From NCBI RefSeq assembly GCF_003333315.1, contig NZ_PSYR01000001.1:646501-710500 (forward strand): a stretch of 64,000 bases of DNA. The letters are read 5' to 3'. The translations under genes were made by a program, and so were the position numbers. Origin of the DNA: Acidiferrobacter thiooxydans. GTDB taxonomy: Bacteria > Pseudomonadota > Gammaproteobacteria > Acidiferrobacterales > Acidiferrobacteraceae. A model generated the notes under the pieces. It did no database searches. It saw only the letters and a program-made list of their open reading frames with translations, and was not told the DNA's origin. Positions 22,170 to 40,938 of the stretch are shown here, piece after piece (positions within the stretch are counted from its first letter, which is position 1; each line of letters starts with the position of its first letter).

Positions 22170-22221
22170 TGCGCTGATGTACACAACGTTGCGTTGTGCC
22201 AACGAAACATGGGGGGTAGAA

Positions 22222-25501: not shown

Positions 25502-25560
25502 GCCAGGAGACTCTCCGTGGTTTTGGGATCTTGAAAGCAATGGCGGCCTGCCCTTAGGGG

Positions 25561-27126
25561 TTACAGTCCCAGGCAGAGGCCTTCGCTTCGTGGGTCATGC
25601 GCGCCCAGCAGAAGACTGCCGCTTGCGTTTATGGTGATGGCGCCGGCCTGGCCGGTGCCCGGATTCAATGCCGACACGATCTCGATCGGATAGCCGAATT
25701 GCTGCAGATCGCGGATCGCGGCGATGTCGGCGTCCGACTCGATCTTAATGCCCTTGCGGCTATCAAGAAAGGTAGGGCCTACATGGATGCGCGGGCGCGC
25801 AAGCGCGGTAAGAGGATCCAGACCGAAGTCGACGAGCCGGGTCAGGATATGGGCGAGCGCCTGCGGTTGCCCATCGCCGCCCTGTGAGCCGTAGATGGCG
25901 CGGACCTTGCCGTTTTTGCAGTATAAGGCGGGACTCAGGGTATGGAGGGGACGTTTTCCGGGGGCCCAGGCGTTGGGATGATCGGCAATGGGCGAAAACG
26001 CCGCCCCGCGATTATGCCACAACACCCCCGTGTCCCCGACCACAACGCCGCTGCCAAAGTCGAAGAAGAGACTCTGGATGAGACTGACACAGCCCCCGGC
26101 CGGGTCGCGCACGCCGATCCAGACGGTATCGCCGGGCAGCGTCGCGTGTTCGGCATGCGCAGCGGCCGTCCCGGTGCTGGTGCCGGCAAGCGGCGCATCG
26201 CCCAGCATCGCGGACACGGGCACGGGTGTGAAGGCGGGGTCGGCCACGAAGCGGTTGCGGTCGGCGAGCGCCGCCTTTATGGCCTCGATGAGCAGGACAT
26301 AAAAGCGTGTGTCGTCGCCGCGCGCCCGTGGGATCTCGAAACGGTTCAGGAGGTGCAGGATCTGCAGGGCCGTGACGCCTTGGGTGGGCGGTGGCAGATT
26401 GAAGGCCGCCCCGTCGCGATAGGAAACTGCAAGCGGCGTCACATAAGTGGCATACGTCGCCTCGAGGTCGGCGCCCGTCACCACGCTTCCGGCGGCGCGC
26501 AGGCCGGCGGCCAGGCGCTTGGCGAGCGGGCCTTCATAGAAGCTGCGCGGTCCCTGTTCGGCTATGTGCGTAAGTGTCGCCGCGAGAGCGCCTTGCGTCT
26601 GCCGGTAACCGGCCTCGCACGGTTGGTCGGGGCGCTCAAAGGTGTCCTTGAAGCCGGGTTGGGGGTCGAGCGCGTGACGATGGGTTTTGTACCAGAAGGC
26701 CTGGGATTGGCTCACCGTATAGCCTTCTTTGGCGCGGGCGATCGCGGGCCCCAGGAGGGCCGGCCAATCGAGGGTCCCCGCCCAGGACTCCCCGCTGAGG
26801 CGGTGCGCGAGCCGCCAGCTATCGACGGCGCCGGCGGTCGTGGATGCCGCCGCCGGGCCGCGCATGGCAGGCCCCACCATGGGCGGCCGGGCGGCCGCCG
26901 CCTGTCCTATGCCGAGGATACCGAGTGGCTCGCGTCCGTCGCGGGCGAGTAGCCAGCAGGCATCGCCACCGAGGCCGGTCATGTGCGGGTAGATGACGCA
27001 CAACATGGCCACCGCCGCCAGCGCCGCCTCTATGGCATTGCCTCCGGCGCGTAAGATGGCAAGGCCGGCGCGCGTAGCGTCGGGGTGCGGGGTTGTGATC
27101 AGTGCGGTATGCGACTGCGCTAACAT
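25561..27126 (-). CDS. Gamma-glutamyltransferase-family Ntn hydrolase, HpxW-like (oxamate amidohydrolase)
   Basis: 521 residues; GGT-fold with the N-terminal LRAGGNAIEAALAAVAMLCV segment and GLGGDACWLL. The autocleavage/nucleophile region reads GDTVWIGVRDPAGG followed by VSLIQSLFFDFGSGVVVGD, matching the HpxW type (oxamate amidohydrolase of the Klebsiella hpx purine cluster) better than true glutathione GGT. The nucleophile would be the threonine of GDT. It lacks a signal peptide, so it is cytoplasmic. ATG 27126 overlaps the guanine deaminase stop. Oxamate is a late product of purine ureide breakdown, which fits the neighbours. Another N-acyl amidase activity is possible. Confidence 0.75.
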   Translation of the reverse strand: MLAQSHTALITTPHPDATRAGLAILRAGGNAIEAALAAVAMLCVIYPHMTGLGGDACWLLARDGREPLGILGIGQAAAARPPMVGPAMRGPAAASTTAGAVDSWRLAHRLSGESWAGTLDWPALLGPAIARAKEGYTVSQSQAFWYKTHRHALDPQPGFKDTFERPDQPCEAGYRQTQGALAATLTHIAEQGPRSFYEGPLAKRLAAGLRAAGSVVTGADLEATYATYVTPLAVSYRDGAAFNLPPPTQGVTALQILHLLNRFEIPRARGDDTRFYVLLIEAIKAALADRNRFVADPAFTPVPVSAMLGDAPLAGTSTGTAAAHAEHATLPGDTVWIGVRDPAGGCVSLIQSLFFDFGSGVVVGDTGVLWHNRGAAFSPIADHPNAWAPGKRPLHTLSPALYCKNGKVRAIYGSQGGDGQPQALAHILTRLVDFGLDPLTALARPRIHVGPTFLDSRKGIKIESDADIAAIRDLQQFGYPIEIVSALNPGTGQAGAITINASGSLLLGAHDPRSEGLCLGL

Positions 27127-28379
27127 GGCAAGGTCGGCTCTAATGGTATGCGGCCGCTGCCCGTGGAAACCTGGTGCCCGGCGATCCACGTTCCAAGCGG
27201 GCGCTGCTCGAGTTCATCGGGCGAGCCCTCCAGGAGATCTTCGAACCAGGCCTGCGGCGACTGCGCGCGCGCCCCGCGCGGCATGAGCACGAAGTCTGCG
27301 CGCCGCCCCGGGTCCAGACTACCGGCCACGGCGCCGCGCCCCATCGCGCGCGCGCCGGCGAGGGTCGCACGAAACAGGGCCTCTTCGGGATCCACGCGGA
27401 CCTCAGCCGCTTGGTGTTGGCGCCGGAATCTCTGCATGACATGGAGCATGCTGTGGCTCGGGCCCGCGCCCACGTCGGACGCGAGCGCGAACGGGACCTG
27501 ATAGCGCCGCGCGCTGTCGAGATCAAAGCGGCCACTGTCCAAGGCCTCGTTGCTCGATGGGCAATGCGCGATCCAGCAGCCGCGTGCCTTGAGGCAGCGC
27601 CATTCGCGCGCACTCAAATGGAGGCAATGACCGAGCACGGTACGGGGACCAAGGAGGCCGGCCTCATCATAGACGTCGGTGTAGTCGAGGGCCTGTGGGA
27701 ATAGCCGCGCGACCTCCCGTACCTCGGCTATCGATTCGGCAAGATGGGTTTGGACGGCAAGGCCTTGATGGCGCGCAAAGGCGCCCAGGGCGGCGAGATC
27801 GTCGGCTGGGCAATTTAAGGCAAAGCGTGGTGTGATTGCGTAATGCGTGCGACCCAGGGCCTCCGACAGAGAGGCGAGATCGGCCGGCGGTTTTACGCTT
27901 GCCGCGACGAGATCGGCGGGGGCGTTCGCCGTCATGACCACGTTTCCCGTGACCCAGTCGCCCCGCCGCGCGGCATGCGCGATACGTGCCGCCGTGGGGT
28001 GCGGGCTCGAATAACTCATGCCCATCACGGTGCCGGCCGCGAGACAATCGGCAAAAAACTCCGCCGCCCGTTGCTCGGCAAGCAGGCTATCGGCATAGCG
28101 CGCCTCTTCCGGCCAGATGTGGGCCGCAAGCCATGGCAGAAGGTCTTGGGCATAGCGCCCGCGAACCGCATGTTGCACCCAGTGGATGTGGACGTCGGCA
28201 AAGCCTGGCAGGATCACGCCATCGAGTTTCACCGGTTCCCAGGGGTAATTCTTGACCACGTCATCGAAGCGTCCCACGGCGCGGACCACGCCATCTAGGA
28301 CAAGCAGGCCGGCGTCGTCCAGGAACTGCCATGACTGGACGTCGACAGGGTTCAAGAGCGCCGCCCGAAACAGGGTCAT
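27120..28379 (-). CDS. guaD: Guanine deaminase (amidohydrolase superfamily)
   Basis: A 419-residue zinc hydrolase converting guanine to xanthine. Metal and family motifs: GFADVHIHW (HxH), [32 protein letters not shown] and [17 protein letters not shown]. The last two are characteristic of guanine deaminase and separate it from s-triazine hydrolases such as AtzB. ATG 28379 overlaps the upstream isochorismatase stop as ATGA, so translation is coupled; the open frame further upstream lies within that gene. Its product xanthine would be a substrate for the divergently encoded molybdenum hydroxylase. Confidence 0.87.
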
Positions 28380-29077
28380 GAGGCGATGAGGCCGGCAAGT
28401 GCCGCGCGCAGGTTGGCCGAAGGCGCGGTGGCCCCGAATATCCCTCCCTGCATGCTGATCATGCTGATCGCCGCCTCGTAGTGACGCTTTTCCGTTGCGC
28501 CGGTACAGTCGGTCAGGAGCAGGCATTCGAAGCCCCGGTCATTGGCCTCGCGCATGGTGGTATGCACGCACACATCGGTCGTGATCCCGGTGAGAATGAG
28601 ATGGGTCACGCCCATCGTCCGCAGGATGTGCTCGAGGTCGGTGGCATAGAAGCTGCCCTTGCCGGGCTTATCGATGATGATCTCCCCGGCCGCCGGACGC
28701 AATTCCGGGACGATCTCCCAACCTGGTTCGCCGCGCACCAGGATGCGTCCGCAGGGTCCGGGCTCGCCGATCCCGGGACACACCTTGCGGCTACGCCACC
28801 CCTTGTTCGCCGGCAGGTCCACGAGTTCCGGTCTATGTCCCTCGCGGGTATGGATGACACGCATCTCCGGGACCTTGCGCACGAGTTCCAAGGTCTCCCG
28901 GATCGGCGCGATGGCCGCACGCGTCAGGTTCAGGTCGTAGCCCATGGTGTCCACGTAGCCGCCCTCTCCGCAGAAATCGGTCTGCATGTCGATGATGAGA
29001 AAGGCGGTCTTGGCGGCATACGCCGTCTCGTCGAATGGCCAGCGATACGGTGCCGCTTCGACATGAAATCCCGTCAT
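28376..29077 (-). CDS. Isochorismatase-family cysteine hydrolase, biuret amidohydrolase-like
   Basis: 233 residues with the Asp-Lys-Cys catalytic triad of cysteine amidohydrolases: D in [12 protein letters not shown] in [15 protein letters not shown] in [16 protein letters not shown]. The surrounding blocks ([44 protein letters not shown]) match biuret hydrolase (BiuH/TrzF-type) more closely than nicotinamidase or RutB. Biuret hydrolase gives allophanate plus ammonia and follows cyanuric acid hydrolase in triazine breakdown. A cyanurate/barbiturate-type ring opener is encoded on the other strand 5 kb away. The substrate could be another ureide. It lies between the cupin and guaD genes. Confidence 0.8.
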
Positions 29078-29087
29078 TACTATCCTC

Positions 29088-29519
29088 CTATTCGCTTTTG
29101 TCGTTGTCGATGAACGCCACGGGGGCTTGCCATTGGATCAATACTAAGCAGCCCTCGCGGCTGTACACGGAGTGGCGGCTTCCTGCCGGATTGAACACAT
29201 AGGAGCCGGCCTGGTAGTCGCCGTGCTCGTCACTCTGGCTGCCCTGGATCACGAAGATGTGTTCGTCTCCGGTGTGGAGGTGCAGCGGTACGCGCGCGCC
29301 GGGGATATAAGAGAGCAGCGCGATGCGTAGGTATGTCCCCTGGAAGAGTTCGCGGATACGGATCCCGGGCCGCAGCACCTGCCACTGCGGGCCGTCCTGA
29401 GTCAGGTCCGACGGGGTCAGGACATAGCGCGTGACCGCGCTTGCCAAGCGCCCGCGCCCATCGTCCGGGTCGGATTCCTCGGTGTGAGATCGTGCCGGCG
29501 CATTCTCTTTTGATTTCAT
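29088..29519 (-). CDS. Cupin-domain protein, ChrR-like
   Basis: A 143-residue small protein with one cupin fold: metal motif [16 protein letters not shown] (H-x-H-x-E) and second motif [16 protein letters not shown]. It resembles the C-terminal domain of ChrR anti-sigma factors but has no anti-sigma zinc domain. It is first gene of the leftward operon and lies ten bases before the biuret hydrolase-like gene. It could be a sensor, an isomerase or a small-molecule enzyme in the ureide route; the role is unknown. ATG 29519 was chosen because it lies 39 bases downstream of the predicted sigma54 start; an in-frame ATG at 29585 would lie upstream of the promoter's start site. Confidence 0.75.
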
Positions 29520-29568
29520 GAATCGGTCTCGGGCCTGGGATTTTTCAGTCTGCCGTTGACGGGACCGA

Positions 29569-29584
29569 AGCAGTAAACGTGCCA
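29569..29584 (-). promoter_or_regulatory. sigma54 (-24/-12) promoter for the cupin-biuret-guaD-hpxW operon
   Basis: Minus-strand TGGCACGTTTACTGCT with GG at 29583-29582 and GC at 29571-29570 (N10). This is very close to the consensus TGGCACG-N4-TTGCW. Predicted start near 29558, 39 bases before the cupin ATG. Confidence 0.85.
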
Positions 29585-29850
29585 AGCCGGCCGACTTAAG
29601 ACTGGCAAGGTTCTGTCACGCCGCCCGCGCCGTTCGTGGTGATGGCCTCACCGTTTTCGTGCATCCCCGGAACGCCCGTGCCCTAGCAAGGGGCGCCCTT
29701 GCGGCGCGCCGGGCGGATATCCGGGTCTACCGCTTGGCGAGGGAGTGGTGGCGCCACAGGCAGACTCGGGCGTTGTTATCAGGCGCAAATGCGTGCGTTG
29801 TGAACGATTCGAGGCGCGCGGCATGGACCGCGACCGGCATAAGCCCGAGT

Positions 29851-29866: not shown

Positions 29867-29878
29867 ATGTACACATCG

Positions 29879-32137
29879 ATGCATAACGATGACAGGTTCG
29901 GGACGACTCTCTTGAAGGACGCGCCTTTACGCAAAGACGGGGCTGAAAAGGTGCGCGGCACGGCGCGCTATGTGGCCGACATCAGCTATCCGGGCATGCT
30001 CCATGCCGCGACCTTGCGTACGCGCCTGCCTGGCGGCACAGTCGTCTCGATCCGCTTCGATGACCATGTGCCCTGGAACGAATATGTGGTGGTGACGGCC
30101 GCAGACATACCCGGGGTCAATGCCGTCAAGATGATTGAGACAGACCAGCCGGTGCTGGTGGAAACACAGTATCGCCACGCAGGTGAGCCGGTGGTGCTGG
30201 TCGCGCACCCCGAGCCGCGGGCCTTGGCGTGCGCCTTGGCGGCCATTCACATAGAAGAACGGCCGTGTGCCGAGCCGCCGGTCTTTACTATCGAGGAGGC
30301 CTTGCGCCTGGATACGCGGCGGATTGTCGCCGACAACGTCTACCGTGATTACCTCATGGAAAAGGGCTCGGTAATGGACGCTGAGAACGGACCCTGCCGT
30401 GTGTTTGAAGGGGAATACCACACCGGGGCGCAGGAGCATCTCTATATCGAACCGCAGGGCATGATAGCGCGCGTGGAAGACGGCGTTCTGACCGTCGAGG
30501 GGTCGCTGCAATGTCCGTACTACGTCCATGCGGCACTGGTGTACGCGACCGGCCTGCCGGAAGAACGCGTACGCGTCCTGCAATGCGCGACCGGCGGCGC
30601 GTTCGGGGGCAAGGAGGAGTATCCGTCGCATATCGCCTGCCATGCGGCGCTACTCACCCTGAAGGCCGGCGGCCGGCCGGTGGCGCTCATTTATGGGCGC
30701 GGCGAGGATATGGCGGTGACGCCCAAGCGCCATCCCTCGCGTTCGCGTGTGCGTCTCGGCGCAAGCCACGATGGTCGCCTGCGTTTCATCGACATCGACT
30801 TCGCGATCGATGGGGGCGCCTATCTCACCTTGAGCCCGGTAGTCTTGTCGCGCGGCGTCATCCATGCCGCCGGACCTTATCGTTGCGACAATATTCGCGT
30901 ACGCGGCCGCGCGGTGGCGACCAGTCACCCGCCATTCGGCGCCTTCCGGGGGTTCGGGGCACCGCAGAGCATTTTCGCCCTGGAGGCCGCCCTCGACGGG
31001 CTGGCGCGTGTTCTCGGGATGGCGCCGGATGTGCTGCGCCGGCGCAACGTCCTCGCCCCCGGGGATATCTCGCCGGCCGGACAGGGCATCGAGGGACCGG
31101 TCGATATGCAGCGGGTCATCGATCAGGCCCTGGAGGTCTGCGGCTATCGCACCAAGGTCGAGGCCTACCGCCGCTGGAATACGCAGCAGGGCGCCACCCG
31201 CAAGGGCATAGGACTCGCCACCTTCTACCATGGCGCGGGATTTACCGGCAACGGTGAGCTTGCATTGCGCTCACGGGCCGGCCTACGCGTGGGCCCCAAA
31301 GGCCTCGTGGAGATCCTGACATCGACCACCGAGATGGGGCAAGGCATGCAGACGACGCTCTCCCGGATCGTCGCCGAGGCCCTGCGCATCCCTTATGAAG
31401 GGGTCGTGGTGGCAAGGCCCGATACCCGTGACGTGCCCAATTCAGGCCCGACGGTGGCGTCACGGACGTGCATGGTGGTGGGGGCGATCCTCACGCAGGC
31501 CGCGCACGATCTCATGGCCCGATTGCGCGCCCATGCCATGCTGCCGTCCGCCTACGATTACGACGAATTCCGCGCTGCCTGCGCACGCCTCCATGCCGCC
31601 GAGGGTGTCACGACCGTCATTGCCGACTACCGGCATCCGCCAGGCAGTAAGTGGGACGAGTCGACCTTTCAGGGGAGTCCTTATGCGAGCTTTGCGTGGG
31701 CCTGCTACGTGGCCGAGGTCGAGGTCGACGTTGCCACCGGGGAGGTGTGCATTCTCGACTTCACGGCAGTTCAGGAGGTGGGGCGGGTCGTCCATCCAAC
31801 GGTGGCGGCCGGCCAGATCGCAGGCGGCGTGGTACAGGGCATAGGCTACGCCTTGTTCGAGGACGTACAGTTCGGGGCGGATGGGCAGATGGCCAATAAT
31901 CGTGTCACGAACTACATCATCCCGACCAGCGCCGACATTCCACCGATACGAGTATTGTTCCAGGAATCCCGGCACGGCGCAGGTCCTGGTGGTGCCGCCG
32001 GAATAGGCGAGTTGCCGATGGACGGACCCGCGCCGGCGATCATAAACGCCATAAATGCCGCGCTTGGCACCGACATTCGGCATGTGCCGGCGATGCCGGA
32101 GCATATCCTGGCGGCCATGGATCGGAGGTGTTCATGA
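29879..32137 (+). CDS. Molybdenum hydroxylase (xanthine dehydrogenase family), large molybdopterin subunit
   Basis: About 752 residues. Moco-binding features are visible: the GGAFGGKEE glycine loop, the PPFGAFRGFGAPQ segment, EMGQGMQTTL and, near the C terminus, GGAAGIGELP with the catalytic glutamate. Such enzymes insert oxygen from water into N-heterocycles or oxidise aldehydes; here xanthine, hypoxanthine, uracil or a related ring are candidates. The operon order is large, 2Fe-2S, FAD, then a lyase, a ring opener and XdhC/MocA maturation genes. The start is uncertain: ATG 29867 would precede the predicted sigma54 transcription start, so ATG 29879 was chosen, giving an almost leaderless message. 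The stop overlaps the 2Fe-2S gene as ATGA. Confidence 0.87.
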   Translation: MHNDDRFGTTLLKDAPLRKDGAEKVRGTARYVADISYPGMLHAATLRTRLPGGTVVSIRFDDHVPWNEYVVVTAADIPGVNAVKMIETDQPVLVETQYRHAGEPVVLVAHPEPRALACALAAIHIEERPCAEPPVFTIEEALRLDTRRIVADNVYRDYLMEKGSVMDAENGPCRVFEGEYHTGAQEHLYIEPQGMIARVEDGVLTVEGSLQCPYYVHAALVYATGLPEERVRVLQCATGGAFGGKEEYPSHIACHAALLTLKAGGRPVALIYGRGEDMAVTPKRHPSRSRVRLGASHDGRLRFIDIDFAIDGGAYLTLSPVVLSRGVIHAAGPYRCDNIRVRGRAVATSHPPFGAFRGFGAPQSIFALEAALDGLARVLGMAPDVLRRRNVLAPGDISPAGQGIEGPVDMQRVIDQALEVCGYRTKVEAYRRWNTQQGATRKGIGLATFYHGAGFTGNGELALRSRAGLRVGPKGLVEILTSTTEMGQGMQTTLSRIVAEALRIPYEGVVVARPDTRDVPNSGPTVASRTCMVVGAILTQAAHDLMARLRAHAMLPSAYDYDEFRAACARLHAAEGVTTVIADYRHPPGSKWDESTFQGSPYASFAWACYVAEVEVDVATGEVCILDFTAVQEVGRVVHPTVAAGQIAGGVVQGIGYALFEDVQFGADGQMANNRVTNYIIPTSADIPPIRVLFQESRHGAGPGGAAGIGELPMDGPAPAIINAINAALGTDIRHVPAMPEHILAAMDRRCS

Positions 32138-32592
32138 CAGTTCCATGTCGGTTTCTCGTAAATGGATCGACGGCCCACGGAAGTTTTCCACCGATGCGCC
32201 GTCTGCTCGATGTATTGCGCGACGAGTGCGGCTTGACCGCGACCAAGGAGGGTTGCGGGGAGGGCGAGTGCGGATCGTGCTCGGTGCTGCTCGATGGTGT
32301 GCTGGTGAATAGCTGCCTTGTGCCGGTGGCCGAGGTCAACGGTCGCGAGGTGACGACGCTCGAGGGCCTGCCTGCAGACGACCCCCTGTTCGCGGCATTC
32401 GCGGCCACGGGGGGGACGCAGTGTGGCATCTGTACCCCGGGCATGATCATGGCCGCGCGCGCCTTATTGAACGATCACCCGTGTCCCGATCTTGCAAAGA
32501 TCCGCGAGGCGCTGGCGGGCAACCTGTGCCGATGCACGGGCTACGGAGGGATCTACGCCGCCATCCGCGCGGCCTCGGGGCAGGGCGAGTGA
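32134..32592 (+). CDS. Molybdenum hydroxylase, 2Fe-2S small subunit
   Basis: 152 residues with the two [2Fe-2S] clusters of the family: plant-ferredoxin type CGEGECGSCSVLL with a later Cys (NSCLV), and the C-terminal helical type CGICTPGMIMAA with CRCTGYGGI. It carries electrons from the molybdenum centre to FAD. ATG 32134 overlaps the large-subunit stop. The GTG at 32128 is an alternative start, but ATG is better placed. Confidence 0.93.
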   Translation: MTVPCRFLVNGSTAHGSFPPMRRLLDVLRDECGLTATKEGCGEGECGSCSVLLDGVLVNSCLVPVAEVNGREVTTLEGLPADDPLFAAFAATGGTQCGICTPGMIMAARALLNDHPCPDLAKIREALAGNLCRCTGYGGIYAAIRAASGQGE

Positions 32593-32594
32593 GC

Positions 32595-33454
32595 ATGTCC
32601 TGGTATGCCCCACACCACCTGGATGAGGCCTTGGCGTTGCTGGCCAGGCGTCCCCATATGAGGTTGGTCGCCGGTGGGACCGACATCATGGTCGGCTGCG
32701 AGGCGCACGCCGAGGGTAGTGAATATCTGAGCCTCTCCGGCGTGGGCGGCCTGCGGGGCATCCGCGAGACGCCTGCGGGCGTGACGATCGGTGCGCTCAC
32801 AACCATGACCGAGATCGGGCAGCACCCCGCCGTTTGCCGGGATCTGCCGGCCCTGGCCGCCTCGGCGCGGGCGACCGGGGCGGTCGCGATACAAAACCGT
32901 GCAACCCTGGGCGGCAACATCATGAACGCCTCGCCGGCGGCCGATAACGCCCCGGCCTTGCTGGCCTACGGGGCATCGGTGGTGCTCATGTCGGCCGGAG
33001 GCTCGCGGCACGTCCCTTACGAGCGATTCCACGAAGGATACAAGGCCACGGCACGGCGCCCGGGGGAGATCCTGGGGGAGATCTTTGTGCCGTTCCCCCG
33101 CCACAGGCTCGTCATTATTTTCGCAAGGTTGGAACGAGGCGCGCCCAGGCCATCAGCAAGGTGGGTCTCGCGGCCTTGTTGGCCGGCGCCCCCGGCGCCT
33201 GGCAGTGCGTGCGTTTCGGTTTCGCGAGTGTGGCCGCGACCCCGATCCTTGCGCGCGCGCTCGCTGCGGCCATCACGGGTGCGGCTTGCGGCCTGCCCGA
33301 CGATGAGAGTCTGGCCGAGGCGCTAGGACGTGATCTGGCCGCCCGCGATGATACCCGCTCGACCGCCGAGTACCGTCGGCGCGTCGCCATGAACCTGGTG
33401 CGCGAGGCCCTCGCGCCGTGGAGACATCAAGGAGGTTTCAATGCCAGCGACTAA
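32595..33454 (+). pseudogene. Molybdenum hydroxylase, FAD-binding subunit, with a single-base frameshift
   Basis: The N-terminal part shows the CoxM/XdhB-type FAD motifs (RLVAGGTDIM, TIGALTTMTEI, NRATLGGNIMNASPAADN). After EIFVPFPRHRLV the frame goes wrong near 33109-33113. In the next frame the protein continues HYFRKVGTRRAQAISKVGLAALLAG and runs to a stop at 33454, including the normal C-terminal end (EYRRRVAMNLVREAL). One missing C explains this. Either the gene is newly broken or the base was lost in sequencing; the rest of the operon is intact, which favours the second. The stop lies inside the next gene, so coupling is retained. Confidence 0.85.
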
Positions 33455-34013
33455 GGAGAGGGCAGTATTCGATGTGCCGCTCATGGATGCCACCGCCGAC
33501 AACATCAAGGACTACGGCGTCTTGATAGGTGCCGAGGTCCACAGACCAGGCCTTGCGATCCCGTTCTATGCAAGTGTCGAGGAGGGACAGAATCTGGAGT
33601 TCGTCTACCACGGGCGCGCGGTCGTGCGCACCGCGCGTATCAGCAAGCGGTCCTCGGAGCTCATATGGTTCGAACGGCATCTGCGCATGACCCAACTTTT
33701 CATAGGACTCGGCGATCAGCCGTTTGTCATGGTCCTGGCCAAGCCCAATCATGAGGCCGGCCGGCGTGTACCGGACTTCGCGGACATGGTGGCATTCCGG
33801 TTGCCTGCCGGACACGGGGTCATGATCCACAAGGGGACCTGGCATGACTTCCCGATGGCGATCGACAAGCCGGTAACGGTATTTACCGCCAATTCCGAAG
33901 AGGTGGTGAACGCCTTGTGCGCGGTGTCGGGTCCCCAGGAGATCGACGACGGGGATGTGTTCAAGATCGATATCGCCGCCCATACCGGGTGCATTCCCAG
34001 GGTTCCGTTCTGA
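33441..34013 (+). CDS. AllA-like ureidoglycolate lyase-family protein
   Basis: 190 residues of the ureidoglycolate lyase fold (cupin-like barrel). Diagnostic features are WFERHLRMTQLFIGLGDQPFVMV (AllA: E-RH--TQ-F-PL), AFRLPAGHGVMIHKGTWHDFPM and a C-terminal VFKIDI. AllA releases urea from ureidoglycolate to give glyoxylate, the last step of allantoin breakdown. Start ATG 33441 has AAGGAGG upstream, the best ribosome site in the operon, so it is probably well expressed. Beside a ring-opening amidohydrolase, a substrate such as a ureido-acid from pyrimidine or purine ring opening is conceivable. The exact substrate is not fixed by the sequence. Confidence 0.78.
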   Translation: MPATKERAVFDVPLMDATADNIKDYGVLIGAEVHRPGLAIPFYASVEEGQNLEFVYHGRAVVRTARISKRSSELIWFERHLRMTQLFIGLGDQPFVMVLAKPNHEAGRRVPDFADMVAFRLPAGHGVMIHKGTWHDFPMAIDKPVTVFTANSEEVVNALCAVSGPQEIDDGDVFKIDIAAHTGCIPRVPF

Positions 34014-35089
34014 TGCGGGCCGATGTCCATTCCTTTGCCGCGGCGGCCCCGGACGATGTCGAAGGGTTGGCGCGCGCCTTGCGGGACCGGCGTATCGCCG
34101 CCGCCGATATCGTGGCTGTCATCGGCAAGACCGAGGGCAACGGCGCGGGCAACGATTTCACGCGGGCCATGGCGACACAGGCCTTCACGCGGCTATTGGC
34201 CGAATATCTGGCGATCCCGGAACGAGACGTCGAGCGCCGCGTCATGCTGTCGTTCTCGGGGGGCTCCGAAGGCGTCATAACGCCCCATTACCTAGTGTGC
34301 ACGAAAACCGGGGTCGTGGCGCCAGGTGAACCCGCGACGCGCAAATGTCTGGCCCTCGCGGCGAGCCGCACGCGACCGCTCGATCCCGAAGAGGCGGGGA
34401 CCATGGTCATGGTGCGTGAGACCGAGGCGGCTATGCGCCGGGCGATGTCCGAGCTGCGCGTGCCCCCGGACGATGTGCATCTCGTGCATGTCAAGGCGGC
34501 GCTGCCGGCGGTAGCGCCCGGCGTCATACACCCGCCGCGCTGCACCATGGTCCATGCGCGCGCCGCTTCGGCTCTGGGGGTGGCGGCCGCGCTCGGCGAG
34601 GTCGACGGTGACGCGCTTACCGATGACGCCATAGCGACGCGTCTCGAACTCTACTCGCAGGTAGCCAATGTCTCGGCCAAGCCCGGCGTTTGCGCAAGCG
34701 AGATTTTGGTGTTCGCGAACTCCCCTTACTGGGATAGCCCGTGCCGCATCCATCACGCCGTAATGCGCGACATTATCGACATAGAGCCGGTACGCGCGCT
34801 GTTGGCCACCGCCGGCCTGTCTACGTGCGGGCAGCTCGCGCCCGACCAGGCGCGGCGTATCCGTGCCATATTCGCCAAATCCGATGCCGATCCCAGCCAT
34901 AGTATCCGTGGTCGCCGCCATACCATGTGGACCGACGAGGATTTCAGCGACATGCGCTATTCGCGGTGCGTGGTGGGCGCCGTACTCGCGGCCCTGACGG
35001 GGACCACGGCAGTTTATGTCTCCACGCGCGCCGAACACATGGGACCGCCAGGAGGGGGGCCTGTGGCGGTGATCGTCGATGAAACCTGA
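34013..35089 (+). CDS. Ring-opening amidohydrolase, barbiturase/cyanuric acid hydrolase family
   Basis: 358 residues, the usual length of the family. It shows the three-fold internal repeat with paired Lys/Ser residues: GKTEGNGAGNDFTR with SFSGGSEGVITPHY (repeat 1), VHVKAALPA with MVHARAASALGVA (repeat 2), and SAKPGVCA with MRYSRCVVGAVLAALTG (repeat 3). It ends with the GPPGGGPVAVIVDE metal loop. The only known members open cyanuric acid or barbituric acid; barbiturase acts after uracil is oxidised by a molybdenum hydroxylase. The ATG overlaps the AllA-like stop by one base and its end overlaps xdhC. Location next to hydroxylase genes favours a barbiturate-type or hydroxypurine-derived substrate over cyanurate. 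Confidence 0.87.
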   Translation: MRADVHSFAAAAPDDVEGLARALRDRRIAAADIVAVIGKTEGNGAGNDFTRAMATQAFTRLLAEYLAIPERDVERRVMLSFSGGSEGVITPHYLVCTKTGVVAPGEPATRKCLALAASRTRPLDPEEAGTMVMVRETEAAMRRAMSELRVPPDDVHLVHVKAALPAVAPGVIHPPRCTMVHARAASALGVAAALGEVDGDALTDDAIATRLELYSQVANVSAKPGVCASEILVFANSPYWDSPCRIHHAVMRDIIDIEPVRALLATAGLSTCGQLAPDQARRIRAIFAKSDADPSHSIRGRRHTMWTDEDFSDMRYSRCVVGAVLAALTGTTAVYVSTRAEHMGPPGGGPVAVIVDET

Positions 35090-36005
35090 GGGGCCATTGG
35101 TCGAGGTGGTGGTGACGCAGGTGGCGGGGTCGGCGCCGACCGCAGTTGGGGATTCCTTGTATCTCGGTGCCTCCGGTTGGCGAGGCTCGGTAGGGGGCGG
35201 CGCCATCGAAGAGGCCCTTAAGACGCGGGCCGTTACGTGCCGCGAACAGGGCATCGGGGCGGTCGTGGAATTTTCACTCAATAGTGAGCACGACCAATGC
35301 TGCGGAGGGCGTGTAGCGGCGATCATCTGTCCCATCCCGCCGGTGGCGGAACCTTGGCTTCAGCAGGATCTACCCCGTCTCTATGGCTGGGATCACCGGG
35401 AACGGCCGCGGCTTATGGGGGCTTGGTGGCAGGGCCGCTGGCATCCGGCTGCGGCCGATCATATCCCGGATCCGGCCGTGCCGGAATGGCCTGCCGGTCT
35501 TCGTGTCGCGCAGAGTGGGACATATTTTTGGAAGCGCGCGGCAATCAGACATCCGTTATGGCTCTTTGGCGCCGGCCATGTCAGTGCTGCGATCGCGGCA
35601 TTTGCCTGCCGCCTCGGATATGACGTTTCGGTGTTCGATACGCGCCTGGAGTGGAACAATGCGGAGCGCTTCCCGCCGGGGGCCACTCGTCATATCGCCG
35701 CCATGCCGCCTGCCGAAGACACAAGCCCCCCACCATCGGCGCTCGTCATGACCCATAGCCATGGTCTCGATTTTGCTATCACCACGGCGCTCCTGGCGCG
35801 CCCCATCGATTACCTGGGCGTGATCGGCAGCCGGACGAAGGCCGCGCTGTTCCGAAAACGCCTCCGCGACCACGGCTATGGTGACAAAGAGCTTGCCAAG
35901 CTGCATATGCCGATGGGGTTCCCCGGTCTCGGGAAGAAACCATACGAGGTGGCGGTGGCGGTTCTTGCCGAACTTCTGCAAAGGCGCCAGGGAGGGATGT
36001 CGTGA
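35079..36005 (+). CDS. xdhC: XdhC-family molybdenum cofactor maturation protein
   Basis: 308 residues. The N-terminal XdhC/CoxI domain has AGSAPTAVGDSLYL, GSVGGGAIEEAL and DQCCGGRV; the C-terminal Rossmann domain has WLFGAGHVSAAIAAFA and VIGSRTKAALFRKRL. XdhC binds Moco, helps its sulfuration and inserts it into the hydroxylase large subunit. It overlaps the preceding ring-opener gene by 11 bases and the following MocA-like gene by one base. Its presence supports an XDH-type sulfurated enzyme. Confidence 0.92.
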   Translation: MKPEGPLVEVVVTQVAGSAPTAVGDSLYLGASGWRGSVGGGAIEEALKTRAVTCREQGIGAVVEFSLNSEHDQCCGGRVAAIICPIPPVAEPWLQQDLPRLYGWDHRERPRLMGAWWQGRWHPAAADHIPDPAVPEWPAGLRVAQSGTYFWKRAAIRHPLWLFGAGHVSAAIAAFACRLGYDVSVFDTRLEWNNAERFPPGATRHIAAMPPAEDTSPPPSALVMTHSHGLDFAITTALLARPIDYLGVIGSRTKAALFRKRLRDHGYGDKELAKLHMPMGFPGLGKKPYEVAVAVLAELLQRRQGGMS

Positions 36006-36592
36006 TGGCCGTGGTATTGGCCGGCGGCCGCTCATTCCGGGCCCATGCCCCCAAGGGCTGCCGGCCTATCGAGGGCCGCCCCTGGCTTTACCGCCAATGT
36101 CGCCGATTGCGCTCGCGAGGTTTCGCGCAGGTGCGCGTCGTGCTCGGGTTCTCGGCTATGAACACCGCGCGTTGCGTGCCGCCAGGGGTCCGCAGGATCT
36201 GGAACAGGGACCGGGCGGGCGGGCCGTTCGCAAGTCTGCGCGCGGGCGTGCGCGGCGCACATGGCGCCGTGCTCGTGGTTTTGGTGGATGCTTGGCCCCC
36301 TTCGTCGGCCACGATCTATCGGCTTCGCCAGGGACTGCGCGGGGCGTCTGCCGCCACCCCCACCTGGCGTGGGCGGGGCGGGCATCCGGCCTTGCTTTCA
36401 CGGGATCTCGCGAGTGCCATCGCCGGGCACGCGAATCCGGCTGAAGGGCGCCTTGATCGCGTGCTCGCGTCGAGTGGCGCACGCCGCGTTGCCGTACAGG
36501 ATCGCTCGATACGGCGCAACATGAATCGGCGCAGGGATTGGGCGTTCTACCTGCGATATCGCAAGCTAAGGAGGCCGCTATGGACGGGGTAG
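36005..36592 (+). CDS. MocA-like molybdenum cofactor nucleotidyltransferase
   Basis: 195 residues. It begins AVVLAGGRSFRAHAPKG, the nucleotide-binding loop of the MobA/MocA family, with GGHPALLSRDL and the terminal NMNRRRDW-type motif of MocA. The acidic motif reads VLVDAWPP where D-x-P is usual. It would add CMP (or GMP) to molybdopterin for the hydroxylase. ATG 36005 overlaps the xdhC stop (TGATG), and the 3' end overlaps gntR by 13 bases. It is very arginine-rich and somewhat diverged. Confidence 0.78.
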   Translation: MAVVLAGGRSFRAHAPKGCRPIEGRPWLYRQCRRLRSRGFAQVRVVLGFSAMNTARCVPPGVRRIWNRDRAGGPFASLRAGVRGAHGAVLVVLVDAWPPSSATIYRLRQGLRGASAATPTWRGRGGHPALLSRDLASAIAGHANPAEGRLDRVLASSGARRVAVQDRSIRRNMNRRRDWAFYLRYRKLRRPLWTG

Positions 36593-37275
36593 CGTCGCGC
36601 GTCAGTGCATCGGCTATTTATGAAAGCCTAAAGGAGATGATCTTGAGTTTCGAGATTTATCCCGGGAGCCGTATTACCGAGTCCGACCTCGCGGCGTTTT
36701 TTGGGGTGAGCCGCACGCCCGTGCGCGAGGCCCTGCAACGCCTGGCCCAGGAAGGACAGGTCAGTATCCGCACCAAGCAGGGGTGCTTCGTGCGCCAGAT
36801 CAGCATATCCGAGCTTGCGCAGTTTTACCGGGTACGCACCGCGATCGAATGCCTGTCTTTGGAGATTGCCGCGAGATCCATGGCCAAAGAGGCGCTGTGG
36901 GCGCTTGCGCGGGAGTGGGATCCCGCACACTGCTCGGGGGCTGCCACCGACCTGAGCCTTATGGTGCAAAAGGAGGAGTCGTTCCACATGACGCTTGCGC
37001 GGGGCGGCGGGAATCAGGCGCTGGCGACCTATCTGAACGACATCAATGAGCGTATTCGGGTCATAAGGCGCCTTGATTTCACGGCTGGATTCCGTATCGA
37101 ACGGACCTACGAAGAGCATCATAGGATCGTGTGTCTGCTGCTGGAGGGGGACTTGGCGGCCGCCAAGACGCTCATGACAGACCACATCCTGCAAAGCGAG
37201 AAATTCGCGCGTAGCGTGACATTGGAACAGCTGGCCAGGACCGAGAACGGTGCGGCTCGGTCCGCCATGCGCTAA
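36580..37275 (+). CDS. GntR-family regulator (FadR/VanR subgroup)
   Basis: 231 residues. The N-terminal winged helix has GSRITESDLAAFFGVSRTPVREALQRL, then a wing ending GCFVRQI and a helical FCD ligand domain (FYRVRTAIECLSLEIAARS, EEHHRIVCLLLEGDLAAA). ATG 36580 sits six bases after an ideal AAGGAGG. It is the last gene of the hydroxylase operon and probably senses a pathway intermediate. Since that operon appears to use a sigma54 promoter, GntR may act as a repressor on top of the activator or control another promoter nearby. Confidence 0.88.
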   Translation: MDGVASRVSASAIYESLKEMILSFEIYPGSRITESDLAAFFGVSRTPVREALQRLAQEGQVSIRTKQGCFVRQISISELAQFYRVRTAIECLSLEIAARSMAKEALWALAREWDPAHCSGAATDLSLMVQKEESFHMTLARGGGNQALATYLNDINERIRVIRRLDFTAGFRIERTYEEHHRIVCLLLEGDLAAAKTLMTDHILQSEKFARSVTLEQLARTENGAARSAMR

Positions 37276-37428: not shown

Positions 37429-37537
37429 GTAGGTGTATGCAAGGATGCATTCAAGTCCGGCGGCGTGAGGCGTTACCGCGTCGACCTGGGGAATGCATGG
37501 CATGGTTCGTTCAGAAGTCCACGCGAAGGAGACGAAT

Positions 37538-38254
37538 ATGGTAGTCCTGCAATATATCGTTCATTTGGCTAATTATTCAGATGGCGTGCTGTATGTTTTG
37601 GCGCTTGTCATGATGTTGGAGATCGCGGTCATCATAGATCGGCTATGGTTCCTGCGGCGCGGCCTTAGAAAGGGCAAGGAGGTGATTCAGGACATATCCC
37701 GACGAGGCAAGATGCAGCGCGATGACCTGAAAGAGATCGTCGAGCGCTGCGCGGGGCTTCCGGAGGCGCGCCTCGTGGAGGTGGCACAGCGCTACTTTGG
37801 CCTCATCCATCACTATGGGAGCGCACGCGGCGAGGCCTTTGCCAATCGGCTCGATGAGACCATATTTCTCATTACGCCCACTCTCGACAAGAGGTTGTGG
37901 CTTCTCGACACGATCGTGACGCTGGCACCGCTTCTCGGGCTGTTCGGAACCATAATAGGGATGTTTCATGCCTTTTCGATACTGGCATTGCCTGGCCATG
38001 CGCCAACCTCGGTAACGGCCGGTGTGGCTGATGCCCTGATTGCGACGGCCACCGGACTTTTCATCGCCATGGTAGGGCTTATAAGCTTCAATGCCTTCAA
38101 TAATGCCATAGAGAAGATCGTATATCAGCTTGAGTCCTTGAAGATCCTGTTGCTCAATCGCATGGATGGTGCGCCGGTCTGGCCGGAAACCGGATCGGTC
38201 ACGCCGGCGCCAGCGCAAGAAGGGCGGTCGTCCGCCGGCCGCGTGATGATCTGA
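37538..38254 (+). CDS. exbB: ExbB/TolQ-family proton channel subunit
   Basis: 238 residues with three membrane segments: one near the N terminus (VLYVLALVMMLEIAVIIDRLWFL) and two in the C-terminal half around DTIVTLAPLLGLFGTIIGMFHAF and ADALIATATGLFIAMVGLISF. The LLGLFGTIIGM loop and the T-x-GL residues of the proton path are typical. It is the inner-membrane motor that drives TonB. ATG 37538 follows AAGGAGACGAAT; an upstream in-frame ATG at 37493 has no such site. It heads exbB-exbD-tonB-NCS1 permease. Confidence 0.92.
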   Translation: MVVLQYIVHLANYSDGVLYVLALVMMLEIAVIIDRLWFLRRGLRKGKEVIQDISRRGKMQRDDLKEIVERCAGLPEARLVEVAQRYFGLIHHYGSARGEAFANRLDETIFLITPTLDKRLWLLDTIVTLAPLLGLFGTIIGMFHAFSILALPGHAPTSVTAGVADALIATATGLFIAMVGLISFNAFNNAIEKIVYQLESLKILLLNRMDGAPVWPETGSVTPAPAQEGRSSAGRVMI

Positions 38255-38266
38255 CGGGAGGATGCC

Positions 38267-38668
38267 ATGACACCACGAATGGGTCGACGCAAGAAGGGTC
38301 GTGTGGAAATCATCCCGATGATCGATGTCATGCTGTTCCTGCTCGTATTCTTCATCATGATCACGATGCAGATGATTTCGGATCGGGGCCTGCACCTTAA
38401 CCTGCCGACATCGAGCCAGGCGCACGCGTTGCCGCATCCGCATTTTGTCATCAACGTAAAGACCCCGGGTACGGTGATCGTGAACGACAAGCATTATGAC
38501 CTGGCAGCCTTGGTTGCGATGCTGCATGGGGATGGCGATCCGGCCAAGACCCAGGTGACGATCGCGGCCGACAAGAAGGTGCCATTCCAGGAATTCGTGC
38601 ATGTCATGGACGCCTGTCGCAAGGCCGGCGTGAGCCAGATCGGGATCGCCACGGAGCCCAAGGCATGA
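38267..38668 (+). CDS. exbD: ExbD/TolR-family motor subunit
   Basis: 133 residues: a short cytoplasmic N terminus, one membrane helix carrying the essential aspartate (VEIIPMIDVMLFLLVFFIM) and a periplasmic domain. It forms the proton-conducting core with ExbB. It lies 12 bases after exbB. Confidence 0.94.
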   Translation: MTPRMGRRKKGRVEIIPMIDVMLFLLVFFIMITMQMISDRGLHLNLPTSSQAHALPHPHFVINVKTPGTVIVNDKHYDLAALVAMLHGDGDPAKTQVTIAADKKVPFQEFVHVMDACRKAGVSQIGIATEPKA

Positions 38669-38741
38669 ACGGGTCTCGTGGACGAATAATGCGTGTCGAA
38701 GGGCTGCCGGACGGTAAGGGATGGGGGTCGAGGAGGCGCGT

Positions 38742-39500
38742 ATGAGCGTTTTGGGGTGGTCCAGTGGGCCGACGCGCGCTGGCGGTGACGGGGACGGCGA
38801 CGAGCCGCGGGTGTTCGGGTATGCCCTGGCTGGGGCCTTCGTGCTGGAGGTCGCGCTAGTCGCGCTTGTGGCCCTGTGGCCTCACAGCGTGCCGCGCACG
38901 GTCCGTCCAAGTTCGATCGCGGTACAGATGGTGACGCTCCCGAGGCCTGTGCCGCCGCAACCCAAGCCGCGGCCACGACCTGTGGTTCCGCCGCCTGTGG
39001 TCCATAAGATTCCCCCCAAGCCGATCGTGACCAGGGCCCCGGTGCATGAGGTGGTGCCGCCGCCCATAAAACCCAAGGTAGTCCCGAAGACGGTACCTGT
39101 GGTGCCGGCGCATAGGCCAAGGCCTGTGGCCCATCCCCATAAGGCGGTGCCGCTGAAGGCGCATAAGCCGGCGCCCGCGCCTAGTCCGTCGCCGCGACTC
39201 CTTGCCTCGCTCATGTCGCGCTACGTGGGCCTCGTGCGGCCCATGATACAGGGGCATTTGCACGTGCCGGCCATGCTGAAGGCCATGGGCCTTTCCGGCC
39301 GCTCTACGATAGAATTCCGGCTGTCTCCGAGCGGCCGCCTGCTGTGGGCCAAGGTGCTTGTGCCTAGTCATATTCGGGCGGTGAACGGCGCCGCGCTTGC
39401 GGCGGTCGAGCGCGGACACTTCCCACCGTTCCTAAAGCGCATGCCGAGGCGAGACACGACCTTCGAGATCACCGTGCACATCAGTGGCGACGGTTCATGA
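38742..39500 (+). CDS. tonB: TonB energy transducer
   Basis: 252 residues with one N-terminal membrane helix (ALAGAFVLEVALVALVALW), a long Pro-Lys/Pro-Arg periplasmic spacer (PPQPKPRPRPVVPPPVV and onward to about residue 150) and a C-terminal TonB fold with STIEFRLSPSGRLLWAKV and FPPFLKRMPRRDTTFEI. ATG 38742 follows GAGGAGGCGCGT. It energises outer-membrane receptors, and the two receptors 15-20 kb away under the same promoter type are the obvious partners. Confidence 0.93.
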   Translation: MSVLGWSSGPTRAGGDGDGDEPRVFGYALAGAFVLEVALVALVALWPHSVPRTVRPSSIAVQMVTLPRPVPPQPKPRPRPVVPPPVVHKIPPKPIVTRAPVHEVVPPPIKPKVVPKTVPVVPAHRPRPVAHPHKAVPLKAHKPAPAPSPSPRLLASLMSRYVGLVRPMIQGHLHVPAMLKAMGLSGRSTIEFRLSPSGRLLWAKVLVPSHIRAVNGAALAAVERGHFPPFLKRMPRRDTTFEITVHISGDGS

Positions 39501-39537
39501 GCGGTGTTGGGCGTGGCATAAGAAGGGGGGCCAAACC

Positions 39538-40938
39538 ATGGCGCGCGAACGGCATTCTCTAGGGGCGACCGGCGCGGACCAGCGCCACGGCTCCTCGTGG
39601 GGGGCGCTCTTTATATGGCTCGCCGCGACCATGACCGCCTCGACCATTCCCTTGGGCGGCATCATGGCGCAGGCATTCCCGGGCGCGCCGTTTTTGTGGG
39701 TGATGCTGGCGGCTTCCGGGTGTTTCCTGTTAGTCGGCATCGTGAGCATCCCTGGGTTTGTCTATGGTCTGCCGACCATGGTGGTCTCGGAGCATCTATT
39801 GGGTGCGCGCGTCAATCGTGTCATATCAGCGGCCAATTGGCTTTCCCAGGTGGGGTGGGAGAGCGTGGTCCTTGTGATCGTCATCTATATCGTGCGCAGT
39901 CTGTTGTTTCAAGGCGAGGTCGTCTATCCGGTGAGTGCGACACTGATCGCGCTCGCGGTATCGTTGTTTGCCAACTTCACGGTCCCGCTCCTTGGCTACC
40001 GTGCCATCGTCGCGGCCCAGAAGGCAGGCGCCGTTCTGCTCATGCTGTTTTCGATCGTCATCCTTTTTCATGTGCCTTTGAAGGCAAGCCTTCTGAGCAC
40101 CCGCACGGCCGTGTCGATGACTACGCTGCGCGAGGCCCTGGGCGCCTTGTCCCTGGGGCTTATGGGCGGGGCGCTTTCCTGGACCATGTTCGCATCCGAC
40201 TACTCCCGGTTCACGCGCGCCGACACGCCACTTGCGCGCGTCGCGTGGGCGCCCGCGGTCGGGGGCTTCCTGGGATCGTTCGTGATCCTCTTTGTATCCG
40301 TGGCCTTGTATCAGGCGGGCGGAGTGACATTCGGCAGGGACGGTATCGCCTTTCCGCGGGGGATGTTTCATAGCGAGGTTCTGTACTATGGGTTTTGCCT
40401 CTTCGCGATCGTAGGATTGCTCGCCTCCAACTTCTTGAACGCGTTCAGCTCGGCCTTTAGCCTCGCCGTTACCTTACGGCGTGACCTGAATCGACGCCTC
40501 TCGACCTTCGTGGATGCCTCCATAGGCACGGCGATGGCCATCTGGATCCTGTTTTATGCCCCGACCTTTCTGGACGTGTTCGAGACATTCCTATCTCTCC
40601 TCATCATCGTTGCCGCCCCTTGGACGGGTGTGGTCGTCGTGCAGATACTGGGGGACCTTTTGGGCCGGGGATTGCCGCCGGACCCGGCATCATGGGCCGA
40701 AGGTCGTCGCTTGCGCGCAGGGGTGCTGGTGATCGCGATTGTGGCGAGCGCGCTTTTTTCGAGCAACCCTCTATGGGTGGGCTATGGTGCCCATGCGCTC
40801 GGGGGAGTCGATATTTCGCCGCTGGTCGGGTTCGCCTTGGCGGCGCTGCTGGCAGTGGTTGTGCGTCTGGCGGGTGGGGCGTCGCGACCGGCCAGTGTCG
40901 AGCCGGCCAAGGCTGACGCGCCCCCTCCTGTAGCATGA
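39538..40938 (+). CDS. NCS1-family nucleobase permease (second copy in window)
   Basis: 466 residues with about twelve hydrophobic segments. Family features are FIWLAATMTASTIPLGGIMAQ in helix 1 and WTMFASDYSRFTRADTP, matching the SDYSR motif of cytosine/purine permeases. It follows tonB by 37 bases, so the outer-membrane energising motor and an inner-membrane nucleobase carrier share one transcript. It differs clearly from the permease at 12389. A purine such as guanine, xanthine or allantoin is the likely cargo, by context only. Confidence 0.85.
   Translation: MARERHSLGATGADQRHGSSWGALFIWLAATMTASTIPLGGIMAQAFPGAPFLWVMLAASGCFLLVGIVSIPGFVYGLPTMVVSEHLLGARVNRVISAANWLSQVGWESVVLVIVIYIVRSLLFQGEVVYPVSATLIALAVSLFANFTVPLLGYRAIVAAQKAGAVLLMLFSIVILFHVPLKASLLSTRTAVSMTTLREALGALSLGLMGGALSWTMFASDYSRFTRADTPLARVAWAPAVGGFLGSFVILFVSVALYQAGGVTFGRDGIAFPRGMFHSEVLYYGFCLFAIVGLLASNFLNAFSSAFSLAVTLRRDLNRRLSTFVDASIGTAMAIWILFYAPTFLDVFETFLSLLIIVAAPWTGVVVVQILGDLLGRGLPPDPASWAEGRRLRAGVLVIAIVASALFSSNPLWVGYGAHALGGVDISPLVGFALAALLAVVVRLAGGASRPASVEPAKADAPPPVA

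Follow-up and report, generated by a model that had tools for sequence, protein, structure and literature searches.

What ring is opened by an enzyme of the cyanurate hydrolase and barbiturase (AtzD/TrzD) family when it is encoded in one operon with a molybdenum hydroxylase and a relative of ureidoglycolate lyase (AllA)? The question is raised by a locus of Acidiferrobacter thiooxydans, which we analyzed within a stretch of 64,000 nucleotides (the window; C1:646501-710500 of a 3.25 Mb genome). An earlier note on this DNA had recognized the operon and left the substrate open between uracil, a hydroxypyrimidine and a purine-derived ring. We favour the last of these: the system would serve purine-base catabolism for nitrogen scavenging, with the clade of the ring opener hydrolysing the pyrimidine ring of xanthine or urate, a reading whose probability we set slightly below even. 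From the observed gene content, its conservation, the separate phylogeny and the altered active site we infer every reaction that is discussed here.

The ring opener (34013..35089, + strand) is assigned to its family by a strong Pfam match (PF09663, 387.8 bits, cut-off 25). Its structural model (predicted local distance difference test, pLDDT, 85.8) matches cyanurate hydrolase structures in Foldseek, with an E-value of 2.2e-41 to 6bup. To place it within the family, trees were built from 37 sequences, 25 of them linked to an AllA-like gene, and then from 50, in which 26 AllA-linked proteins stand against 24 other AtzD-family rows. Among the latter are a barbiturase and the characterised cyanurate hydrolases; uncharacterised rows also fall on the cyanurate-hydrolase side, and PDB entry 5hy0 is in neither tree. 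In both trees a branch with 100/100 support splits the AllA-linked ring openers from cyanurate hydrolases and barbiturases, and the family-tree check suggested beforehand thus puts the window protein outside the cyanurate hydrolases. Judged by phylogeny, it is neither a cyanurate hydrolase nor a barbiturase and belongs to a clade of its own; it also falls narrowly below the cut-off of the cyanuric acid hydrolase equivalog NF052395 (349.9 bits, cut-off 360). A class-level study of the family that appeared in AEM in 2017 reportedly holds one class that is untested and one without known substrate, and the AllA-linked clade may be an already numbered but unassigned class of that scheme.

Compared with solved structures, the window model shares the fold of cyanuric acid hydrolases (AtzD/TrzD; Moorella 6bum, Azorhizobium 4nq3, ADP 4bvq) with template-modelling scores of 0.82-0.90 and 37-42% identity. 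Rhodococcus barbiturase (5hwe) has the same fold and family, is 31-32% identical and lies in the other half of the tree. Entry 5hy0, titled orotic acid hydrolase and presumably a Frankia protein, again has the same fold and family, with 32-34% identity to the window protein over its chains, and suggests that the AtzD family includes members with other or unassigned substrates.

The active site also sets the clade apart. The three Ser-Lys dyads and three substrate arginines common to cyanuric acid hydrolases and the window protein are kept in all 25 aligned AllA-linked sequences (Arg52, Arg188 and Arg314). Glu230, in contrast, which is given as absolutely conserved in cyanurate hydrolases in PMC4051656, is present in 12/12 references and replaced by G, L, A or C within an S-x-K-P motif in 25/25 clade members. 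This motif and STRAEH, which stands for SGGAEH, are found in 25/25 AllA-linked ring openers and in none of the 12 references, with locus L059 as a 26th case, and the segment from K156 to R188 measures 17-29 residues in the clade versus 32 in every reference. The backbone nitrogens of the residues after the serines bind the substrate carbonyls in known structures (PMC4051656), and in the Moorella enzyme Glu235, which by motif occupies the same place as Glu230, holds Arg52 (PMC6557486). Going by these published roles, the clade's substitutions would lie in or next to the active site. The separate clade, new Lys and Arg residues beside two catalytic serines and the loss of Glu230 together make a substrate other than cyanurate or barbiturate plausible. 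Two barbiturase references differ from the clade in another way: they have Asn where it keeps Arg188, a replacement given as Gln in PMC4051656, and Glu337 is absent in both. A six-frame motif search also picked up S-x-K-P in L067 and, away from the ring opener, in L060-L062 and L070. L067 encodes a divergent AtzD-family protein (L067:1501-2568) with SAGGE and VSGGTEH and no AllA match, which falls near the barbiturases, a placement that its long branch makes unsure.

The partner encoded immediately upstream, the AllA-like protein (33441..34013, + strand), is a distant member of PF04115 (46.2 bits, cut-off 23). Its model (pLDDT 90.4) has AllA-type proteins as best PDB matches (E 2.5e-9), so that the fold is shared with ureidoglycolate lyase, whereas the score stays far under all six NCBIfam ureidoglycolate lyase models matched (at most 34.2 bits versus cut-offs of 160-282). 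TrtB, a carboxybiuret decarboxylase, was considered as one candidate identity. BLAST comparison of the AllA-like protein with neighbours of AtzD in Rhizobium (four in R. johnstonii 3841 and another in strain T136) and Skermanella (two proteins), and with a cupin of L042, gave nothing significant. What distinguishes it is its tie to the ring opener. We scanned 84,980 species genomes using an AllA-like alignment and obtained 24 loci with such a protein; the search was seeded by two short peptides conserved in this alignment, and more distant AllA-like proteins would escape it. The co-occurrence outside this genome that had been proposed is borne out in 23 of them, where the ring opener lies directly downstream on the same strand, beginning no more than 70 bases away from the end of the AllA match; L037 is the exception. 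Five loci are of Acidiferrobacter type and 11 of Acidithiobacillus type (nine so titled and two metagenome-assembled genomes, L028 and L035); by title, the other eight comprise five from Myxococcaceae, Myxococcales or Myxococcota, two from Deltaproteobacteria and one from Obscuribacterales.

Searching in the reciprocal direction, an AtzD-family gene was found in 14 of 398 sampled genomes of the window's phylum. Both signature motifs occur in two of the 14, the window and L059, each with an AllA-like gene adjacent; since the window is itself one of these cases, L059 is the single new piece of reciprocal evidence. The remaining 12 showed no AllA match within flanks of about 1.5 kb (0.6 kb in L062). 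PF09663 is present in 6 of 13 other same-genus genomes and in none of 46 outside the genus (7/60 including the window's own). Neither a clustering with cyanurate hydrolases nor a lack of co-occurrence was thus found, and the earlier interpretation as a whole is supported in part, the urea release that it suggested being a hypothetical step.

The genes that accompany the pair in acidophiles point to purines. In 10/11 Acidithiobacillus-type loci an adenosine deaminase (NF006850, 481.5 bits, cut-off 419) lies in the same-strand operon, and a guanine-deaminase-like enzyme, a NUP-family protein and an NCS1 permease are each found in 10/11 as well; NUP stands near the unit in 4/5 Acidiferrobacter-type loci. 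In the window, the guanine-deaminase-like amidohydrolase (27120..28382, - strand; open reading frame, ORF, 27120-28526, the start near 28382 being guessed) scores 293.7 bits with TIGR02967, below the cut-off of 375.4, and among solved proteins it comes nearest to guanine deaminases (at most 193.3 bits). NUP (PF06516; 24554..25540, - strand; 151.9 bits, cut-off 27) is a purine nucleoside permease or phosphorylase-superfamily protein, and the NCS1 cytosine/purine-type permease (39484..40938, + strand) reaches 50.5 bits with PF02133 (cut-off 23.5) and 46.9 with TIGR00800, below its cut-off of 353.1. Among the substrates first left open, adenosine deaminase, the guanine-deaminase-like enzyme and NUP favour a purine-derived one.

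These deaminases also bear on an oxidative pyrimidine route, in which the hydroxylase would turn cytosine or uracil into barbiturate, ring opening would yield ureidomalonate, decarbamoylation would give malonamate and the amidase related to gamma-glutamyltransferase (GGT) would hydrolyse the latter. A hydroxylase followed by a barbiturase is known logic in Rhodococcus, the NCS1 permease is of cytosine/purine type, ureidomalonate and malonamate are conceivable substrates for the products of the decarbamoylating and amidase genes, and a cytidine deaminase, DeoC and a nucleoside phosphorylase are encoded upstream at window 13365-15730. We nevertheless consider this route very unlikely, as barbiturases fall in the other half of the tree, with Asn for Arg188 and no Glu337 in the two sequences compared, and the operon's deaminases look like those acting on guanine and adenosine.

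A search of the acidophiles for a classical urate pathway found none: in 11/11 genomes, several of them drafts, uricase, 5-hydroxyisourate (HIU) hydrolase and PuuD were absent and HpxO and allantoinase stayed below cut-off, in a search in which other families would not show. Within that scope these genomes show no known route past urate. In the Myxococcaceae genome G067, which has the pair at L034, allantoinase, HIU hydrolase and PuuD lie together at C91:48536-54129, so in this genome the pair does not simply replace urate oxidation.

How would such a pathway run? Every gene named in the earlier note is in place according to Pfam and NCBIfam profiles, all on the + strand and abutting or overlapping. 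The molybdenum cofactor (MoCo) subunit of the hydroxylase (29867..32137, identified by these profiles and by alignment with xanthine dehydrogenase, XDH) is followed by the 2Fe-2S subunit (32128..32592; PF01799, 90.6 bits), the flavin adenine dinucleotide (FAD) subunit (32595..33443), the AllA-like protein and the ring opener. Behind them come an XdhC-type hydroxylase maturation factor (35079..36005; PF13478, 117.9 bits), a MocA-like molybdenum cofactor nucleotidyltransferase (36002..36592; NF045665 77.2 and TIGR03310 39.1 bits, both below cut-off) and a GntR/FCD regulator (36538..37275; PF00392 73.6, PF07729 69.4 bits). The extent first given was too small, however, and half of the unit had been overlooked: two further arms are conserved together with the operon, one divergent (24554-29585) and one downstream (37493-40938), and with them BiuH, a cupin, an HpxW-like GGT and the transport genes had been missed. 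In six other same-genus genomes, as far as contigs allow, the minus strand carries NUP, GGT, guanine-deaminase-like, BiuH and cupin genes, as in the divergent arm, and the plus strand MoCo, FeS, FAD, AllA-like, ring opener, XdhC, MocA, GntR, ExbB, ExbD, TonB and NCS1, the last four forming the downstream arm. The order of the operon first described recurs in Acidithiobacillus as well, and the arrangement is therefore not due to chance.

With these genes, nucleosides or bases would be taken up by a TonB-dependent receptor, NUP and NCS1. Deaminases would bring adenine or adenosine to the level of hypoxanthine and guanine to xanthine, and the XDH-like molybdenum hydroxylase would convert hypoxanthine to xanthine and/or urate. 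The ring opener, as a member of a new clade of Toblerone-fold cyclic amidohydrolases, would then hydrolyse the uracil-like CO-NH-CO-NH ring of xanthine or urate with no need of a uricase. Its AllA-like partner would act with it on the substrate or the first product, as a candidate lyase, decarboxylase or other enzyme. The ureido product would lose its carbamoyl group to BiuH and the cupin in Acidiferrobacter, or to AtzG-AtzE and HpxZ in Acidithiobacillus, and the last ammonia would be released by the GGT/HpxW-like amidase. Anaerobes offer a precedent for hydrolysing the uracil moiety of xanthine directly (PMC12507026). The clostridial xanthinase, which we liken by its reaction alone, is described as opening xanthine hydrolytically between atoms 1 and 6 to a ureido-imidazole (PMC3519856, PMC12507026), in a pathway described from Clostridia and Bacilli. 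In its broader form our proposal is tentative and held with more doubt than trust: a new purine route of aerobic acidophiles, in which a Toblerone-fold enzyme and an AllA-like partner hydrolyse the pyrimidine ring of xanthine (or urate) without urate oxidation, while the same pair acts on another ring in Myxococcota and Obscuribacterales.

The hydroxylase step was examined further. All three subunit genes ascribed to the operon are there, but in the window the FAD subunit carries a frameshift close to a run of five C at about 33096-33100. Its frame is open in 6/6 same-genus relatives (L012-L017) and in A. caldus L002, and the shift in the window is either a sequencing error or a true mutation. 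In the MoCo subunit, Glu250 and Arg288 (own count) align with the E of FGGKE and the R of KRH in R. capsulatus XDH, which we take to be the purine-binding residues Glu232 and Arg310. Structure 1jro of that enzyme reads FGGKE and 2w55 reads FGGKQ; aldehyde oxidase, aldehyde oxidoreductase and nicotinate dehydrogenase have a different residue at the Glu position in the same alignment. That the hydroxylase feeds the ring opener, as supposed earlier, is plausible, but it is not essential, for no hydroxylase was found in 9/24 AllA-linked loci. In Acidithiobacillus, five of six genomes have a single MoCoBD_2 match, which shares its contig with the AtzE-type match of the operon. The sixth, strain YTS05, titled a complete chromosome, has no MoCoBD_2 gene genome-wide, and a search confined to its locus found no match to XdhC or MocA. 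The locus keeps AllA, ring opener, AtzG, AtzE, HpxZ, GGT, both deaminases, NUP and NCS1, and these ten genes have no internal stops. Retention of the rest without hydroxylase and maturation genes suggests that the ring opener's substrate can be reached by deamination without oxidation, and xanthine from guanine fits such a substrate.

Several observations weigh against a purine ring. The YTS05 set could be a decaying pathway after recent loss of the hydroxylase. The hydroxylase itself scores below the XDH equivalog cut-offs (pucD 454.6/783.65, XdhA 358.1/780, xdhB 329.5/849.5 bits), and its best full-length score among solved proteins is to an aldehyde oxidoreductase. Neither the window nor its genus yielded an adenosine deaminase (0/5 loci), and none is seen in an A. 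caldus plasmid stretch broken by transposases. The AllA-like step is without assigned chemistry. In the eight loci outside the acidophiles, some of them on short contigs, homologues of the hydroxylase, deaminases and permeases were found in 0/8, and in five of the eight a thiamine pyrophosphate-dependent enzyme follows the pair (L036:9891-13287, L039:4329-6809, L041:8301-10733, L042:11920-14559, L034:11652-13367), fused to an alpha/beta hydrolase in four non-acidophile loci. Three of the eight have an ApbA-type reductase near the pair (L036, L037, L042), and a GGT-family gene, scoring above the cut-off for ordinary GGT, is seen solely in L040. In these non-acidophile loci the pair may act on another ring. 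The retained cage of three Ser-Lys dyads and three arginines would suit a small ring with three carbonyls, the window BiuH exceeds the cut-off of the biuret hydrolase model NF050097 (392.9 versus 370 bits), and BiuH and a related cupin are also present in a known cyanurate operon, that of R. johnstonii 3841. The last three points lead to the carbamoyl-removing genes and to cyanurate.

Those genes come in two versions. BiuH and the cupin are found in 5/5 Acidiferrobacter-type loci, and AtzE/HpxZ in 0/5 (the contig of L023 ends after the ring opener); in Acidithiobacillus-type loci the counts are 10/11 for AtzE and HpxZ (the contig of L035 ends early) and 0/11 for BiuH. A GGT-family gene accompanies both, in 5/5 and 10/11 loci. 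What the two versions have in common is that a terminal carbamoyl group is taken off, a logic that alone does not identify the ring. The window's BiuH-type isochorismatase-like cysteine hydrolase (28376..29077, - strand) scores 340 bits against a solved biuret hydrolase and shares 62.6% identity with the product of the gene next to that of AtzD in R. johnstonii 3841. The ChrR-type cupin (29088..29585, - strand; PF12973, 64.8 bits), a candidate N-carboxylate decarboxylase, matches the cupin of the same strain's atzD operon with 54% over 82 amino acids (E 1.7e-28). The HpxW-like, GGT-family N-terminal nucleophile (Ntn) amidase (25561..27126, - strand; ORF 25561-27189, the start near 27126 being guessed; PF01019, 354.1 bits) lies below the ordinary GGT cut-off of TIGR00066 (293.5 versus 357.85), whereas the Acidithiobacillus GGT of L025 lies above it (366.6). 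The window protein matches the chains of 5hft, presumably HpxW, on separate parts (177.8 and 151.4 bits) and 2nlz over its full length (209.3 bits). The plasmid contexts of GGT and BiuH relatives indicated no substrate.

Oxalurate and oxamate are handled by HpxXYZW, and the AtzG-AtzE-HpxZ-GGT set of A. caldus resembles this system, with 199.2 bits for the HpxZ model (cut-off 135). This allows a route in which the ring opener would take a ring of carboxylated or oxalyl type, such as oxonate or parabanate, to oxalurate, which HpxXYZ (AtzG-AtzE-HpxZ) and HpxW (GGT) would convert to oxamate and oxalate. The new basic residues near the catalytic serines could hold a carboxylate, and no AtzF would be needed, which fits 4/6 of the operon-bearing Acidithiobacillus genomes. 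On the other side, Acidiferrobacter loci have BiuH and lack AtzE/HpxZ (0/5), none of the operon's enzymes is known to convert a base into parabanate or oxonate, and the HpxW role is not secure because the L025 protein passes the cut-off for an ordinary gamma-glutamyltransferase. We judge this route very unlikely. Identity of AtzE fails as a discriminator of the carboxybiuret and oxalurate types, the operon protein being 50.9% identical to ADP AtzE and 51.0% to a Klebsiella homologue.

Biuret is handled by BiuH (PMC6219798, PMC7948467), and carboxybiuret by AtzG-AtzE-AtzH in Pseudomonas ADP (PMC6219798, which also describes a gene order ggt-atzG-atzE-atzH). Accordingly, two unrelated carboxybiuret routes would swap beside the same ring opener if the substrate were cyanurate. 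The two operon versions have matching counterparts: R. johnstonii 3841 combines an AtzD-family gene with BiuH and a related cupin as in the window, and the ADP-type operon combines one with AtzG-AtzE-HpxZ as in Acidithiobacillus. In the stretches examined, however, neither has an annotated hydroxylase, AllA-like or purine deaminase gene, and their AtzD proteins lie on the cyanurate-hydrolase side of the tree. AtzF is above cut-off in 5/5 Acidiferrobacter genomes, in 2/6 operon-bearing Acidithiobacillus genomes (including the 4.6 Mb draft G064) and in 0/4 others. Urea-carboxylase matches exceed the cut-off in G062 and G064, and G000, G005, G011 and G013 have one long match each below it (1194-1253 versus 1303.85 bits). 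With such urea-carboxylase-like genes in 6/7 AtzF-holding acidophiles, AtzF is a poor marker for allophanate.

These data frame a natural s-triazine route, which we regard as rather doubtful. Here cyanurate would be formed by deaminase and molybdenum hydroxylase from an amino- or CH-triazine, such as 5-azacytosine, 5-azauracil or oxonate derived from oxidised purines. The ring opener would yield carboxybiuret, the cupin with BiuH or AtzG-AtzE-HpxZ would lead to allophanate, and AtzF would complete the route. The BiuH score, the cupin homologue of R. johnstonii 3841, the carboxybiuret enzymes of Pseudomonas ADP, the conserved arginines and dyads, and AtzF in all Acidiferrobacter genomes are consistent with it, and BiuH, AtzG-AtzE-HpxZ and the cupin could have made cyanurate the settled answer. 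It is demoted by the position of the clade outside the cyanurate hydrolases, by the missed equivalog, by the loss of Glu230 with the S-x-K-P and STRAEH signature, by AtzF below cut-off in 4/6 operon-bearing Acidithiobacillus genomes, by the urea-carboxylase-like matches, which offer another use for AtzF, and by adenosine deaminase, which does not fit.

We thus return to xanthine or urate as the favoured substrate. The clade's association with an AllA-like gene and, among acidophiles, with purine genes suggests a possible purpose of this fold. Opening of xanthine or urate would add a purine pathway to the oxidative, reductive and xanthinase routes; were the ring cyanurate after all, the operon would indicate that cyanurate has a natural origin via a molybdenum hydroxylase. 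We found no open-licence publication whose title or abstract describes this gene combination.

Other AtzD-family ring openers were met on plasmids of Serratia (L045:7001-14642) and Aminobacter (L051:2984-8077), where they lie with FdrA, DUF1116 and carbamate kinase genes. The Serratia ring opener scores 582 bits to the Moorella cyanurate hydrolase, and the clusters suggest use of cyanurate with a gain of adenosine triphosphate via carbamoyl phosphate. In the downstream arm of the window, ExbB (37493-38254), ExbD (38267-38668) and TonB (38721-39500), all on the + strand, were named by eye and by the ExbB Pfam match of the L024 relative; they are kept in place in 4/5 Acidiferrobacter-type loci, the fifth ending at a contig edge. 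Upstream, the cytidine deaminase, DeoC-type aldolase and phosphorylase-superfamily protein form a group, and two TonB-dependent receptors (18792-21233, 21952-24495) lie between this cluster and the operon. Beyond the NCS1 gene, an ORF of 492 amino acids (41779-43257) with an HNH-like motif (CVYCG, IDHIHPKSRGG, ACHDCN) resembles, by eye, an IscB-type transposon-associated protein.

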